A DNA stretch of 64,000 bases. Source: Neocallimastix lanati (nom. inval.) (taxonomy: Eukaryota > Neocallimastigomycota > Neocallimastigomycetes > Neocallimastigales > Neocallimastigaceae). Below, piece by piece: positions 13,048 to 25,250 of the stretch. The notes beneath the pieces are model-generated. The model was not told the DNA's origin and searched no databases. It saw only the letters and a program-made list of their open reading frames with translations. Positions within the stretch are counted from its first letter, which is position 1. Every line of letters starts with the position of its first letter. Where the stretch lies: NCBI GenBank assembly GCA_016946835.1, contig JACVTC010000058.1, positions 277,001 through 341,000 of the forward strand, read 5' to 3'. The position numbers and the translations under genes were made by a program.

Positions 13048-14004
13048 TAGTCTTCATTTAAAAAAATTATGTTTTATATATTTATACATACACATTAAAA
13101 CTTTTAATTTTTTTTTAATTTTTTTATATAAAAAAAATTAAAATAATAATAATAATAATAATAAATAAATAAAACAAATTTTATTTATTTAAGTTGCAAC
13201 TATCAATCAAAATATTTTTGAACATTATATATATATATATATATTTTTTTTTTATTTTAACTTATATATTTATTAAATTATATCTTTATTTTTATATTTA
13301 CTTTATTTTTTATTATTATTATTATTATTATTATTATTTTTTACATAAAGAAATTTTATTTATATATATACATGTATATACATATATAATTTTATTATAA
13401 ATTTATAAATTTATTCGAATTCTTTTTTTTTTTTTTTTTTTTTTTTTTTTTTTTTTTTTTTTATATATGTATCAAATAAAAAAATAAAAAAAATTATTAT
13501 ATATACCTGAAAATAAAATATATATTATCCATGATATATATAAATTATTAATTTTAACAAAATTTAAATAAAAATATATTACAATTATAATAAAAATTAT
13601 AAAACTACTTATTATTATATTATTATTATTTTATATAAAAATTAATTAAATAAAAGTTGAAAATTATATGTTTTTTTTTTTTTTTTTTTTTTTTTTTTTT
13701 TTTTTTATTATATATTTATTAAAATATTTAATAAATATATTGGATGATTGATTTATTAATATTTATTTATTTATACATTTTATAATTTTATAGTTAGAAA
13801 CTATTGCTTCTAACGTACTTTAATAATAATATTATATTATATAATATATAATATTTTATTTCATGTATTTTATTTTTTAATTTTCATTTTAATTGTTTAA
13901 TTTTATTATTATTATAAATTAAATAAAGTTATTTTCAAAGTCTCTCTATATATATATATATATATATATATATAATTTTATAATTTATAATATTTGATAT
14001 TTAT
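13048..14004. other. Convergent intergenic region between DHHC and receptor genes
   Basis: Separates the 3' ends of two convergent genes. It contains (AT)n, (ATT)n near 13314-13336, long poly(T) at about 13421-13462 and 13671-13706, and a small perfect hairpin with 7-bp arms GTTAGAA (13793-13799) and TTCTAAC (13808-13814). The stretch after about 13733 begins the duplicated segment shared with 20368 onward, although about 190 bp here (roughly 13790-13980) is absent from the other copy. Confidence 0.55.
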
Positions 14005-17000
14005 TTAATAATTTGAACTACTATAACTTTTTCTATGATAATCATATATCTTTTTAATTATATATCCTTTGGTATTATTATTATTATATGAATAATTTTC
14101 ACTACTGTTACTTGTATTATTTGTATTAAAATTTGAATTATCTATAATATTTTTGGTGGTTGTGCTTTGATTTTGAGAAGTACTTATTTCCATGGTTTTC
14201 ATAATGGAGGATTCATTATTAATAAATTGTTTATTAATATTTTTAATAAATAAGCTTTCATCATTTTCTTTTTTTAATAATATCATAACAATTCTTGAAA
14301 AATAAAGAATACTATAGTTTAATAAGGAAAACAATAAATAAAATAAAGAATTTTTTATATAGTGACTGATGTAATTAGTATCGTTGACGTTTTTCATAAA
14401 AAATAACATGATTAAGAAAAGTATATCAGTATATATAGCTAATACAACAAATCGAAGATCATAAAGCGTTCTTTTTAAATTCCATTCACTATATATTAAT
14501 ACTAAAATTATGATTAAAACAATAGATTTTATTACGGTTATTGAAATGATATCAAGATACGATAGAGTTTTGCTTTCTAATGCACAAATTTCAAAATTTT
14601 TCATTTCTGTTGGTGTTATTTGTTTTATAGTGTAGAGTGATGATAATATAATTAGATGGATAATATCAATACCAATAAAAAATATAATAAAAATAAATTT
14701 ATGATTAGCAATCCAAATTGAAAACTTATTTTCTTCTGGAAAATTGACGATTAATTTATGTAATATCGGTATTAATATCAAAGTAGATCCAATCATTAAA
14801 AATGAAATGCTTAATTCACATTTTAATATCGTTCTTGGTCCATTTTCTAAAATGCCTTGACACAGTATACATATAATTCCAATTATCACTAAAAACCAAA
14901 AATCTGTTGATAGAAAACTGAAATATGATTCAAATCTCATAAAGTATAACATTATTAATGATGAAAACATAAAAACTATAAAAAATGAAAAGATAAAATA
15001 GAATATATACGCTAATGTAGCATTATCTCCGTAGATTGAAATATTATATATTTTTAGGATATCGTCAATTTTTTCAAGGACATCATATGATGAACTATTG
15101 CCATACAAAAATTCATATACATATGTTCTTAATAATTCTGAATAACTATCATAATCATAAGATATTAAATTTGGTCTACCAAAGGGTTGAACCCTTTTAA
15201 ATACCTCACAATCAACATTTTTACATACTTCTTCATCTTCATATAAACTCATTATACCACTACCAAAATCAAATTTTATTAAAAGTTCTTTTTGAATTTT
15301 TTTAGATGTCAAAAATTTATACGTTTCAATTACAGAATCTCTTTTTTCTGGAGCTGAATATTTATTTATTCCAATATTATATCCTCCAACTGATGTACCA
15401 GAAATACCTTCTTTATGTCCTGGAATTAATGATTTTGTATAATTTAAATTAAAATCATTTGAAAAAAGTTTACAAAATAGAATTTTTTCTTCTATTAAAT
15501 TTAATATTGAAATATATATTTCAGAACTAAATATAAAATCTATATATATAATTAAAATAAAATGATTAATTTAATTAATATTAATAATTTAAATTAAAAA
15601 TATTTATTTTTTCCTTGTTCGTATTAAATTTATTTTATGCTATATATTTTATTTTATATTTTATTTTATTTTATTCAATCGGTACTTTATATTCATATTT
15701 CAACTATTTATTTTATTTCTTTTTATTTTATCAATAATAATAATAATAATAATAATAATAATAATAATAATAATAATAATAATAATAATAATAATAATAA
15801 TAATAATAATAATAATAATAATAATAATAATAATAATAATAATAATAATAATAATAATAATAATAATAATAATAATAATAATAATAATAATAATAATAAT
15901 AATAATAATAATAATAATAATAATAATAATAATAATAATAATAATAATAATAATAATAATAATATTATTATTATTATTATTATTATTATTATTTTTTTTT
16001 TTTTTTTTTTTTTTTTTTTTTTTTGATATAAGCAGTTTTAATAAATAACATATTCCATATTATTTATTATTTATATATTAATTTAAATTATTATTATTAT
16101 TATAATCATATATAAATAAATATAAATAAATATATATATATATTTATATTTCACCTGAAGATATTTCATTTTTTATTTTTTTGATCATTTCTAATGCATT
16201 AATAGCATTTTGACTTGTAAAATCAGGAAAGGTTGAATTTATGTTTTCTCTATAGGAATATATAAATTCAAGAATGGCGAATGATCCTATTTCTGAATCT
16301 AATTTAATTATAATAAAAAATAAAGAAAAATTATATGTATGAATTGATAGATTATTACACTATATATTTTATTTCTATTAAAGATATCTACTTTATTATT
16401 AATTAAATTAAAAAAAAAAAAATAAAAAATAAAAAAAAATCATTTTATTTTATAATATTATTTCAAATGTTAATAAAAAATGAAAAAAAAAATTTAAAAG
16501 TTATTAATAATTTAATAAAATATTTACCTTCAAATAAACCATTATAACCTATTATATCTCTGTTATGTAATTGCTTTTCTTTGTCTTTTATATAAATTGC
16601 TGTTTCCAATAATTCATTCCAAGTTGTAGGTATTTTTTTTTCATATTTATTTAAAAGGTTCATGTTAGAATATAAAAAAGTGTAATCTAATAAAACTGGC
16701 TATATACAGTATATAATATGTTTATATAATTTTTTAAATTATAATAATGATTTAATTAATTTCTATATATATATATATATATATATATATTTAAAACTAT
16801 AAATTTAATTATATTATTATTATCATTATTATTATTATTATTATTATGGATGTTATTTTAGTCTCATATTATTAAATTAGTAAAAATGAATAACAATAAT
16901 TACAAGGCCAACAATTTTATTTTCATAGGTTCCAATAATGGATAATAAATTAGAATTGTACATATCCATATGATCCTGAGGAAGATATTTTTTCAAATCT

Positions 17001-17411
17001 AAAAAATATGGACCAAATTTTTGTGAATAGACCACATCAAATACTATTATATCATACTTGTCGCTACCTTTTTTAAATAAGGATTCCAATGTTGATTCAT
17101 AATCATTAAAAAATATTGTTGAATTTTCTGGGGTAAGAAGAATTAAATTCAGAGTAATATTTAAATTATTTTCTTTTGAATATTTATTAAATTCTTTAGC
17201 CATATATGAGTAAACATTTTCTTTACCATAATAACCAAATGCAAGTGTATTAACATCAATGGTCCAAACATCTTATAAATAATTTTTAAATACATGTATT
17301 TTTATTATATGCAATTTTATTTATTAAAATTAATATTTTATATACTTTATTGTTACCTTCATAAAAAAATAAACTAAGGAAAATATATAATAATAAATTT
17401 AATAATATCAT
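14005..17411 (-). CDS. Solute-binding domain fused to class C-like 7TM receptor, copy A (5 exons)
   Basis: Predicted surface receptor for a small ligand, probably a sugar. Exons on the minus strand: 17411-17357, 17271-16904, 16699-16528, 16298-16155, 15539-14005. All introns are GT-AG and the frame is continuous, giving 2274 nt and 757 residues. Residues 1-18 (MILLNLLLYIFLSLFFYE) look like a signal peptide. Residues of about 19-400 resemble ABC-transporter extracellular solute-binding proteins (SBP_bac-type phrases NKIVGLPVLLDYTFLYSN, PTTWNELLETA, GGYNIGINKYS). Seven hydrophobic helices follow at about 422-447, 460-477, 487-507, 527-550, 573-595, 608-627 and 643-667. The cytoplasmic tail is rich in Asn and Ser. 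This fusion is known from anaerobic gut fungi. Ligand and G-protein coupling are not visible. The paralogue is at 20449-23772. Exon joins are inferred, but the second copy supports each of them. Confidence 0.9.
15640..16024 (+). repeat. Compound repeat in receptor A intron 4: ATTTT, 35-nt motif, long (AAT)n, (ATT)n, poly(T)
   Basis: Within intron 4 of the receptor gene. ATTTT units are followed by the dispersed motif (15676-15710, containing TATTCATATTTCAACTATTT). Then come roughly 77 AAT units (about 15733-15963), about 10 ATT units and about 33 T. Because AAT and ATT are complementary, the block can fold into a long hairpin. The poly-Asn open frame over it (15637-16026) is an artefact. Copy B has the same architecture with a far shorter AAT tract. 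Confidence 0.9.
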
Positions 17412-23772: not shown

Positions 23773-25036
23773 CTTTATAATTTTTTGCCATATTAATTTT
23801 TTTTTTTTATTTTTATTTTATTTTTTCATTTTAATAAATAATAATAATATTTTAGTGATTGAATTTCGAAATAAATTTAAAATAAAATTTTAATTCTAAT
23901 AATTTTAATATATAATTTCAAGATTTTTTTGTATAATCTTTAAGATTATTTTTAAAATTATTTTTATATTTATTATTTATTTATTATTATATTATATTTT
24001 ATAATATATTTTAATATATTGGAGAATAGTTTAAAAAATTAAAATTAAAATTTCCTAAATTTTTATTTTATTTTATTTTTTATTTTTTATTTATTTTTTT
24101 AATTGTTAAAGTTTTATAATTTAAGCTTTTATATTATTTTTTTATATATGAATATAAATATATATATATATAATTAAAGTAATATAAGATAATTTAAAAA
24201 GATTGTTAATTTAATTCATATTATATATTATTAAAGAAAATACCTAGAAAAAAAAAAAAATTAATAATTAATAAAAAATACTTCAATATTTAATAATTAA
24301 TTAATTAAATAAAATATGATTCCAAAAAAAAAAAAAAAAAAAAAAAAAAAAAAAAAAAAAAAAAAAAAGTGAAATATTAACAAAAAATAAAATAATAAGA
24401 AAAAGATAGTAATAGATATTAAAATCTCCAAAAGAGGTTAAAAATATAAAAGTGAGGAATTTTTAGGAAAAATATACCATCAATCATTAGAAAATAGAAA
24501 TTATTTATTTATATTTAATAAATTAAGAATAAAAGAAATAAAACAAAATAATAAATACTATATATATATTTTAATATTTTATATTTAATATGTTCATTTG
24601 TATAATATCAGTAGACAATTAACATTAAATATTTATATTAGTTTTTTATCTCTTAGATAAGTAAAATAATTTAGATATGTATCATCTAGTTTCATTAATA
24701 AATTCTTATTAATAAAAATTACTAAATTTATTCATTATTGAATTATTAAAGTATTTCGTGAATCTATTATATAGATTGTTTTCTTATTTAATGTCCTCTA
24801 ATTTTAATTTAATTGTATTTTCTTTTAAAAAGACTTCTAATATGAAAATATTTAATGCCATTGTATGTATACTTTGCATTAATGAACTTTTTGAAATAGT
24901 TATATATATTATAACATTATTAGCAATATTGATAGTTACATAACTTTTATTAATATTTAATTTATTAAAATAAACTTATATTTTAGAGACTTTAACTTGT
25001 TCAATAATTCACACTATAATATTCAAATTTCGCTGT

Positions 25037-25250
25037 TGACGGGGTCCTATATTTCTGTAGTTTAGAATGTCAATTCTTCAATTCTTCATAATCCTTTCTA
25101 TCATCATTAAGAAGTTGGAATTAGATTTTTTAATATCTATGTCATCATTATAATCTGTATCAAAGAGAAATTCTTTATTGTTTCATTTCTTGAGAAGTTA
25201 ATATAATAATTATCTGAACCCTTAAGATATTTAAATATTCTTTTAACATT
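25037..25250 (-). mobile_element. Ty1/copia-like fossil, unit B copy
   Basis: Duplicate of the minus-strand fossil at 18780-19010, carried by the segmental duplication. It is broken, and only the reverse transcriptase/RNase H junction region can be suggested. Confidence 0.4.

Follow-up and report, generated by a model that had tools for sequence, protein, structure and literature searches.

Two intact receptor genes lie in tandem in the window, a stretch of 64,000 nucleotides from Neocallimastix lanati, and each joins a type II solute-binding protein (SBP) domain to a seven-helix membrane bundle (7TM). The pair probably arose by duplication of a ~5 kb segment followed by conversion of a ~1.9 kb tract that includes most of exon 5, and may act in sugar receptor signalling. 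The proposed sequence of events is that a segment of ~5 kb was duplicated beside a degraded retroelement-like repeat, giving the pair, and that a tract of ~1.9 kb with most of exon 5 in it was later copied from one gene onto the other. The binding domain would close on an external sugar or oligosaccharide, the closed domain would alter the seven-helix bundle through the linker, and the bundle may then signal inward via a G protein or arrestin.

Both genes are on the minus strand. Copy 1 (14005..17411, 757 residues) has exons at 17411-17357, 17271-16904, 16699-16528, 16298-16155, and 15539-14005, and copy 2 (20449..23772, 762 residues) has exons at 23772-23718, 23632-23265, 23037-22866, 22555-22412, and 21998-20449. 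The models were rebuilt from the sequence using splice sites and open frames. All four introns of both copies are GT..AG with phases 1, 0, 1, and 1, and neither rebuilt reading frame contains an internal stop. The first-pass annotation had described two five-exon genes of these lengths with matching intron positions and phases, and the rebuilt models agree with it. In copy 1, exons 1-4 (16155..17411, minus strand) encode a signal-like peptide and the N-terminal solute-binding part (residues 1-246, with phmmer matches to 1eu8, 6dtq, and others), and exon 5 (14005..15539, minus strand) encodes the remaining solute-binding domain, seven hydrophobic helices, and an Asn-rich tail. The window pair is not alone in these intron positions: matches to relatives (~35-77% identity) also break near residues 141/142, 197-199, and 246/247.

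The extracellular domain is related to bacterial-type sugar-binding proteins. In Pfam searches, SBP_bac_1 scored 32.8 and 41.3 bits in the two proteins (cut-off 26) and SBP_bac_8 scored 31.9 and 32.0 bits (cut-off 27), so both proteins pass both cut-offs. The best solved relative of copy 1 is the trehalose/maltose-binding protein 1eu8 (E 2.1e-15), and that of copy 2 residues 1-420 is the maltose-binding protein MalE3 (6dtq, E 2.7e-15). Canonical animal class C GPCRs carry an ANF domain and a nine-cysteine domain, whereas Pfam searches of the pair up to E 1 gave no match to either ANF_receptor, the type I ligand-binding domain, or NCD3G, the nine-cysteine domain. The nine-cysteine domain is absent from GABA-B receptors as well. 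Before TM1 there are three cysteines in copy 1 and five in copy 2, one of them within the signal-like stretch, and the linker between the binding domain and the helices is short, with no match to a cysteine-rich domain. Homology makes extracellular sugar sensing by the pair plausible.

Hydropathy shows in each copy a signal-like segment followed by seven hydrophobic segments. The Pfam family 7tm_3 scored 20.5 and 21.9 bits in the window proteins, below its cut-off of 33.5; it was matched at E<=0.01 by 27 of the 28 exon-5 open reading frames (ORFs) of the family, and relatives at C179 and C223 passed the cut-off. The earlier description of a solute-binding domain fused to a class C-like 7TM is upheld by SBP_bac_1 above its cut-off and by 7tm_3 across the family ORFs, with the qualification that the profile search gave SBP_bac_1 and SBP_bac_8 over the cut-off and 7tm_3 under it for both proteins. 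Among 7TM chains, a family profile reached only GABA-B2, mGlu3, and mGlu4 up to E 1 (best E values 0.011, 0.035, and 0.15, respectively). These 7TM matches, with E values from 0.011 to 0.74, are weak, and the remaining matches are SBPs. Two exon-5 cysteines, C241 and C319 (C487 and C565 in copy 1), are invariant in 28/28 family ORFs, and hydropathy puts one at TM3 and the other in the second outer loop. We take them to be the class C TM3/ECL2 cysteine pair, an equivalence by hydropathy placement and not by a structure. A structure model predicted for exon 5 with both window sequences as input had a mean pLDDT of 37.7 and was set aside.

The bundle might instead be a non-signalling anchor for a binding protein that captures sugar or serves as a co-receptor. 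This is consistent with parts of PMC5168858, which report gut-fungal SBP homologues for which no receptor part is known, and coupling of the bundle to a partner is putative. We nevertheless consider it unlikely, as the bundle keeps residues that are invariant across the family, the two cysteines among them, and the 7TM structures that the family profile reaches are all class C receptors.

The duplicated segment comprises unit 1 at 13714..18997 and unit 2 at 20352..25248, which pair with each other in BLAST pieces, in line with the shared flanks claimed earlier for the two genes. A stretch of ~150 bases in unit 1 (13792-13947) has no partner piece in unit 2 by BLAST. In the upstream non-coding flank, 191/1425 aligned bases differ between the units, in addition to indels. 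The simple repeat of intron 4 is unequal in length: that of copy 1, composed of (TAA)n, (TTA)n, and poly-T (15735..16025, read from the sequence), is much longer than that of copy 2 and was masked in the divergence scans. At 25824..25992 on the minus strand lies the decayed remnant of a third copy, with 76% identity to the start of exon 5 (E 6e-22). GC content per kb of the window ranges from 6 to 37%, and a tRNA search with bacterial setting found none in the window.

Between the units lies a degraded dispersed repeat (18990..20050). In the genome searched (199 Mb, 762 contigs), it has at least 42 matches besides itself at 67-89% identity, with 40 of 273 candidates scored. Some of these matches are pieces of a single copy. 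We call the repeat Copia-like by reading only, because Pfam gave no match for five ORF pieces from 18831-19946 of this inter-unit stretch.

Since a single assembly is the basis of this analysis, we considered whether two haplotypes of one locus had been set in tandem by the assembly. Several observations make such an artefact most improbable. The copies diverge by 11.9% outside the low-divergence tract described below. Among the 40 of 273 candidates scored, the inter-unit repeat has no second match on its own contig. Apart from the second unit, which matches it in full at 82%, the upstream flank gives only short pieces of less than ~350 bases. Tandem neighbours are also common in the family (29/84). 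The first-pass annotation had called the duplication recent, which holds in a relative sense only: the closest match to the pair outside the window is 61% identical, yet dS between the copies is ~0.2 outside the low-divergence tract.

At the amino-acid level the copies are 87.7% identical over residues 1-400 and 91.0% over 401-end, with 95.0% in the 7TM (412-672). The denser substitution previously noticed in the ligand-binding half is thus right as a raw count, but its interpretation as diversified ligand recognition is not borne out. With the F3x4 codon-frequency model, omega is 0.47 for residues 1-400 and 0.52 for 401-end (2dlnL 0.07), so a dN/dS comparison of the halves finds no difference, and the unevenness follows intron and synonymous sites too. 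Whole-gene omega is 0.50 (2dlnL 8.6 against omega 1), and for residues 19-246 dS is 0.16 and omega 0.35, below 1 (2dlnL 8.0). The whole gene is under moderate purifying constraint. An NG86 count gave omega 1.04 (1-400) and 0.80 (401-end), with widely overlapping bootstrap ranges. We set the value of 1.04 aside in favor of the F3x4 model, because NG86 ignores codon frequencies and the codons of the pair are A+T-biased (about 78% A+T, 85% at third positions).

In a rival reading, the two genes, once recently duplicated, diversified adaptively in the ligands they recognise while selection kept the membrane half constant. This would fit the lower identity of residues 1-400 than of the 7TM, and positive selection has been reported in class C binding modules in parts of PMC2670285. 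It would also fit dN within the tract, which is 0.046 in the SBP part and 0.020 in residues 401-697; the corresponding omega values of 0.89 and 0.50 do not differ significantly (2dlnL 0.46). We regard this explanation as very improbable in view of the omega values and the synonymous and intron pattern above. Moreover, the copies agree at D97, D146, G298-I304, and G367-P369 (copy 1), which lie opposite conserved stretches of MalE3 in the alignment, and differ at the neighbouring F96, I292, and F366 (copy 1 numbering). In the 28 family ORFs, which were chosen by exon-5 similarity, 354/378 pairs show higher conservation in the SBP C-lobe (280-400) than in the 7TM, with mean identities of 48 and 37%, respectively.

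A divergence scan instead places a low-divergence tract at 14186..16084, ~1.9 kb that take in the greater part of exon 5 and some of intron 4. The copies diverge by 3.1% inside it, and synonymous, amino-acid, and intron change are each about three to five times lower than outside. The dS is 0.043 within the tract and 0.20 outside (2dlnL 15.6), and third codon positions changed at 13/451 sites in residues 247-697 compared with 18/228 in residues 19-246. Intron 4 within the tract has 9/246 mismatches, compared with 83/564 in other intron sequence (Fisher 1e-6). The scan score was reached by 0/1000 shuffles in blocks of 1, 25, or 50 bases and by 1/1000 in 100-base blocks; the tract was located by scanning, and its ends are fitted. 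Omega within the tract is 0.67, not distinguishable from 1. The tract looks like the product of gene conversion, and the membrane half would then look more conserved because ~1.9 kb was copied between the genes.

This pattern might instead come from stronger purifying selection on the 7TM exon together with uneven mutation and no conversion. The dN of the 7TM is the lowest among the main regions, and the tract ends are, as noted, fitted. Outside the tract, intron 1 has only 3/85 mismatches, and exon 3 is little diverged (one mismatch in bin 16600-16699, 96.5% amino-acid identity); several tracts or other causes are therefore possible. Compared with an outgroup pair (C8), the 7TM is 65.5-66.9% identical, while exons 2, 3, and 4 are 57-65, 73-79, and 69-73% identical and the SBP part of exon 5 is 58-61% identical. 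The 7TM thus slightly exceeds exon 2 and the exon-5 SBP part in conservation, and some constraint is likely, but exons 3 and 4 speak against constraint as the whole explanation. So do intron 4 within the tract, which at 3.7% is near the 3.0% of the exon, compared with 14-24% for introns 2 and 3 and the remainder of intron 4, and dS, which differs nearly fivefold across the tract border. In another tandem array, the C212 quartet, the grouping of the genes switches along the sequence (0/2000 shuffles), which also argues for conversion. Constraint without conversion is therefore decidedly unlikely.

There are 84 exon-5 matches genome-wide, window copies included. A neighbour no more than 10 kb away is found for 29 of them, which makes tandem copies a usual feature of the family. 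The expanded sugar-sensing family proposed earlier is accordingly expanded, often in tandem, and its role in sugar sensing is plausible by homology. The 28-member exon-5 alignment consists of 26 of the 30 loci L009-L038 and the two window exons: the window copies themselves, L009 and L010, were replaced by window references, and L020 and L025, whose matches are broken into two frames, were left out.

Eleven groups other than the window pair were compared, of which C201, C212, C643, and C742 were examined further; the seven others are less alike. Single change points mix introns with exons, and an exon-only comparison was used, with residue columns taken from tblastn pieces, which here and there run through introns. 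In three other tandem arrays, some pairs likewise have exon 5 less diverged than exons 2-4: 0.9 against 3.6% in C742, 1.5 against 9.4% in C212 (L047-L049), and 1.1 against 5.5% in C201 (L045-L046). The difference is not significant in C643, and C212 L049-L050 shows the opposite direction (exons 2-4 2.7%, exon 5 4.8%, p 0.04). The significant pairs are not independent, because all of them involve L046 within C201 and L047 within C212.

A rather doubtful extension of these observations is that receptor genes in arrays evolve as two modules, with exon 5, which encodes the C-lobe and the 7TM, repeatedly homogenised by conversion and exons 1-4, on the N-lobe side of the sugar-binding domain, escaping conversion and drifting. 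If true, an array would keep one signalling module with varied N-lobes, and tracts would tend to end in intron 4 with its many repeats. The window pair shows such an end and C742 one close to this intron, whereas C201 and C212 show neither. Should such homogenisation prove general among arrays and species, it would reveal how a common signalling module is kept while binding parts drift.

Taken together, the pair belongs, as an unexceptional case, to a large family known from earlier work on gut fungi; new details are the low-divergence tract and the decayed third-copy fragment. The two genes seem to have partly overwritten each other and not to have been tuned to new sugars. The family is little studied, with a possible role in the sensing of plant sugars by gut fungi, and the pair is typical of it. 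The pair also gives reason for caution, as uneven divergence of tandem receptor copies is easily mistaken for ligand adaptation and here follows apparent conversion.

Sequence homologues of the extracellular domain include 1eu8, MalE3 (6dtq), and SmoF (7nbz) (best E 2.1e-15), which we take to be binding proteins of ABC importers; unlike the pair, they are chains of ~400 residues that lack a membrane bundle. Among 7TM structures, the family profile reaches up to E 1 only, and weakly, GABA-B2 and mGlu3/mGlu4, whose binding module is of the ANF/type I kind according to parts of PMC5168858, whereas that of the pair is SBP type II. Eight Glutamate-family 7TM receptors of Allomyces macrogynus carry SBP_bac_1 (parts of PMC3251606, Krishnan et al. 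2012); they belong to Blastocladiomycota, and other N-terminal domains, ANF included, occur there. In the open-access literature, we found no report of anaerobic-fungal GPCRs in tandem, no second gut-fungal receptor study among the matches listed for GPCR and duplication, and, judged by the listing, no related paper on gene conversion in Neocallimastigomycota. The literature on tandem copies, conversion, and GPCRs yielded one review, on odorant receptors (PMC1995454). Also among the closest known systems are the gut-fungal class C GPCRs (PMC5168858, Seppala et al. 2016), and the SBP type II-7TM architecture published there for anaerobic gut fungi confirms that fusions of this kind had been reported. 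As described in parts of that paper, these receptors, like the pair, combine a sugar-type SBP type II domain with a class C 7TM and are without an ANF domain or the conserved nine-cysteine domain. That work is a transcriptome study whose main text contains 'duplicat' 0 times; gene structure, tandem arrays, and conversion are treated here instead.

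Two receptor genes of five exons each lie in tandem on the minus strand, copy 1 at 14005-17411 (757 residues) and copy 2 at 20449-23772 (762 residues), and their introns are GT..AG with phases 1, 0, 1, 1 in both; the first-pass annotation had described the same exon number, protein lengths, and matching intron positions and phases. Relatives have introns at corresponding places (residues ~141/142, ~197-199, and ~246/247), which are therefore likely ancestral. In BLAST pieces, the duplicated segment spans 13714-18997 paired with 20352-25248, and the two units are separated by a degraded dispersed repeat with at least 42 further matches of 67-89% identity, some of them pieces of one copy. 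Beyond unit 2 there are two matches to receptor exon 5, one at 25824-25992 (76% match to the exon 5 start, E 6e-22) and a short one at 26722-26776 (79% match to a different part of exon 5, E 4e-5), and their order is rearranged relative to exon 5. They are probably what is left of a third receptor copy that has decayed. Elsewhere, the window contains a long TTTTA-rich tandem array (4021-4684 and on, 66 overlapping copies by repeat finder), a subtilase (Peptidase_S8) open frame with Chitin_bind_1 matches (27933-29852, 639 residues stop to stop), and a sugar transporter (Sugar_tr) frame (57242-58786, 514 residues stop to stop) more than 30 kb from the receptor pair.

Each protein runs from a signal-like N-terminus through a binding domain to seven hydrophobic segments. 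Of the proposed fusion of a solute-binding domain with a class C-like 7TM receptor, the first part stood, as both proteins matched SBP_bac_1 and SBP_bac_8 above cut-off; for the second, the window proteins on their own scored 20.5 and 21.9 bits with 7tm_3, under the cut-off of 33.5. The closest solved homologue of copy 1 is a trehalose/maltose-binding protein (E 2.1e-15), and residues 1-420 of copy 2 match MalE3 (E 2.7e-15). Among the exon-5 ORFs of a 28-member family (the window copies and 26 other loci), 27 of 28 matched 7tm_3 at E<=0.01. A profile of all 28, taken up to E 1, found among 7TM chains only GABA-B2 (best 0.011), mGlu3 (0.035), and mGlu4 (0.15), with weak E-values. Two cysteines are invariant in 28/28, located by hydropathy in TM3 and the second outer loop. 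These comparisons make the class C-like case appear stronger at the family level than for the two window proteins alone. Beyond the architecture, homology, open frames, and divergence pattern of the pair, which the analysis shows directly, we propose that external sugar would close the binding domain and that the 7TM bundle would then signal inside the cell. The stretches aligning with sugar-binding proteins, particular residues of which presumably contact the sugar, are identical in both copies, with differences only at neighbouring residues, so the simpler guess is that the two copies may bind similar ligands.

The first-pass annotation had suggested diversification of ligand recognition and proposed a dN/dS split, which did not support it. 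Under a codon model fitted by maximum likelihood, using F3x4 frequencies (copy 1 vs copy 2), omega was 0.47 for residues 1-400 and 0.52 for 401-end, and separate values fit no better (2dlnL 0.07). Omega was 0.35 for residues 19-246 and 0.50 for the whole gene (dN 0.050, dS 0.100), below 1 (2dlnL 8.6). NG86 counting gave 1.04 for residues 1-400 and 0.80 for 401-end, with wide, overlapping ranges.

Divergence between the copies is uneven. In 100-base bins, identity is 92-100% across 14200-16000 and mostly 66-95% elsewhere, with one 99% bin in exon 3. A scan places the low tract, covering most of exon 5 and part of intron 4, at 14186-16084 (3.1% divergence inside vs 11.9% outside); its score was equalled by 0/1000 shuffles in blocks of 1, 25, and 50, and by 1/1000 in blocks of 100. 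Exonic and intronic mismatch rates within the tract are similar (40/1354 and 9/246), and outside it mismatches are 28/203 in intron 2, 39/222 in intron 3, 13/54 in the rest of intron 4, and only 3/85 in intron 1. dS is 0.043 inside vs 0.20 outside (2dlnL 15.6). Since selection at the protein level should not reduce intron and synonymous change, the tract is best read as one gene having been copied onto the other. Against an outgroup pair on contig C8, identity is 65.5-66.9% for the 7TM part, 57-65% for exon 2, 73-79% for exon 3, 69-73% for exon 4, and 58-61% for the SBP part (C-lobe) of exon 5; by this comparison the 7TM part exceeds exon 2 and the C-lobe in conservation by a modest margin, too small to account for the tract. 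The order is reversed within the 28-member family, where the C-lobe is more conserved than the 7TM part in 354/378 pairs, a ranking that may be biased because members were chosen by exon-5 similarity. We note that a simple-repeat run of more than 200 bases, far shorter in copy 2, lies at 15735-16025 in intron 4 of copy 1, near one tract end.

The family is large and clustered. The exon-5 query found at least 84 genome matches including the window copies (all E<=1.9e-66), a lower bound as 84 were scored out of 3063 first candidates; seven of the 84 contain a stop, and the best outside the window has 61% identity. The exon-2 query found at least 150 matches including the window copies (150/150 scored; 193 candidates). 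Within 10 kb of another match lie 29/84 exon-5 matches, forming 11 clusters, compared with a mean of 0.9 and a maximum of 6 clustered genes in 1000 random placements. At locus L051 (contig C643, 45300-52500), two equal-score exon-2 matches on opposite strands (45883+ and 51566-) suggest an inverted duplication. Two tandem relatives on contig C756, L020 and L025, have the exon-5 match split into two frames and are likely pseudogenes or sequence errors.

Other tandem arrays were compared in 20 regions drawn from eight more arrays, in addition to C8 and C756; close copies occur in four, on contigs C201, C212, C643, and C742. For the window pair, coding divergence is significantly greater across exons 2-4 (46/656) than across exon 5 (29/1050; p 5e-5), and this also holds in C742 (p 1.4e-4), in 3/6 pairs of C201, every one with locus L046 (best p 2e-7), and in 3/6 pairs of C212, every one with L047 (best p 6e-14). 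C643 showed no significant difference, and L049-L050 of C212 ran in the opposite direction (p 0.04). Along the C212 quartet the grouping of informative sites switches, a two-grouping split fitting 81/94 and the best single grouping 46, and this was equalled by 0/2000 shuffles. Recombination between tandem copies in C212 is well supported. Per 1000 shuffles in blocks of 100, the change point was equalled 0 times for L047-L049, 7 for L049-L050, 20 for C742, 2 for L045-L046, and 182 for C643. C742 has its best change point near the exon 5 start, that of L047-L049 falls within exon 5, and for L046 it sits towards the beginning of the gene, so intron 4 is the boundary in only 2/4 cases. Conversion favouring exon 5 is suggestive only. 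That arrays evolve as two modules, with exon 5 repeatedly homogenised by conversion while exons 1-4 escape and drift, we regard as unlikely, the more so given where the boundaries fall.

In the open-access literature searched, nothing on point turned up about gene conversion in Neocallimastigomycota or about receptor genes arranged in tandem in anaerobic fungi. The receptor type itself has precedents, as the first-pass annotation stated for gut fungi: Seppala et al. 2016 (PMC5168858) describe ~100 class C GPCRs across three gut fungi, roughly half of them carrying SBP type II domains. Krishnan et al. 2012 (PMC3251606) describe an SBP_bac_1 domain in 8 receptors of Allomyces. A later study (PMC8665504) reports that SBP-like genes and class C GPCR genes of a gut fungus are transcribed more strongly in the presence of a methanogen. 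Given the earlier gut-fungal and Allomyces reports, the window pair adds a further member to a known receptor type.
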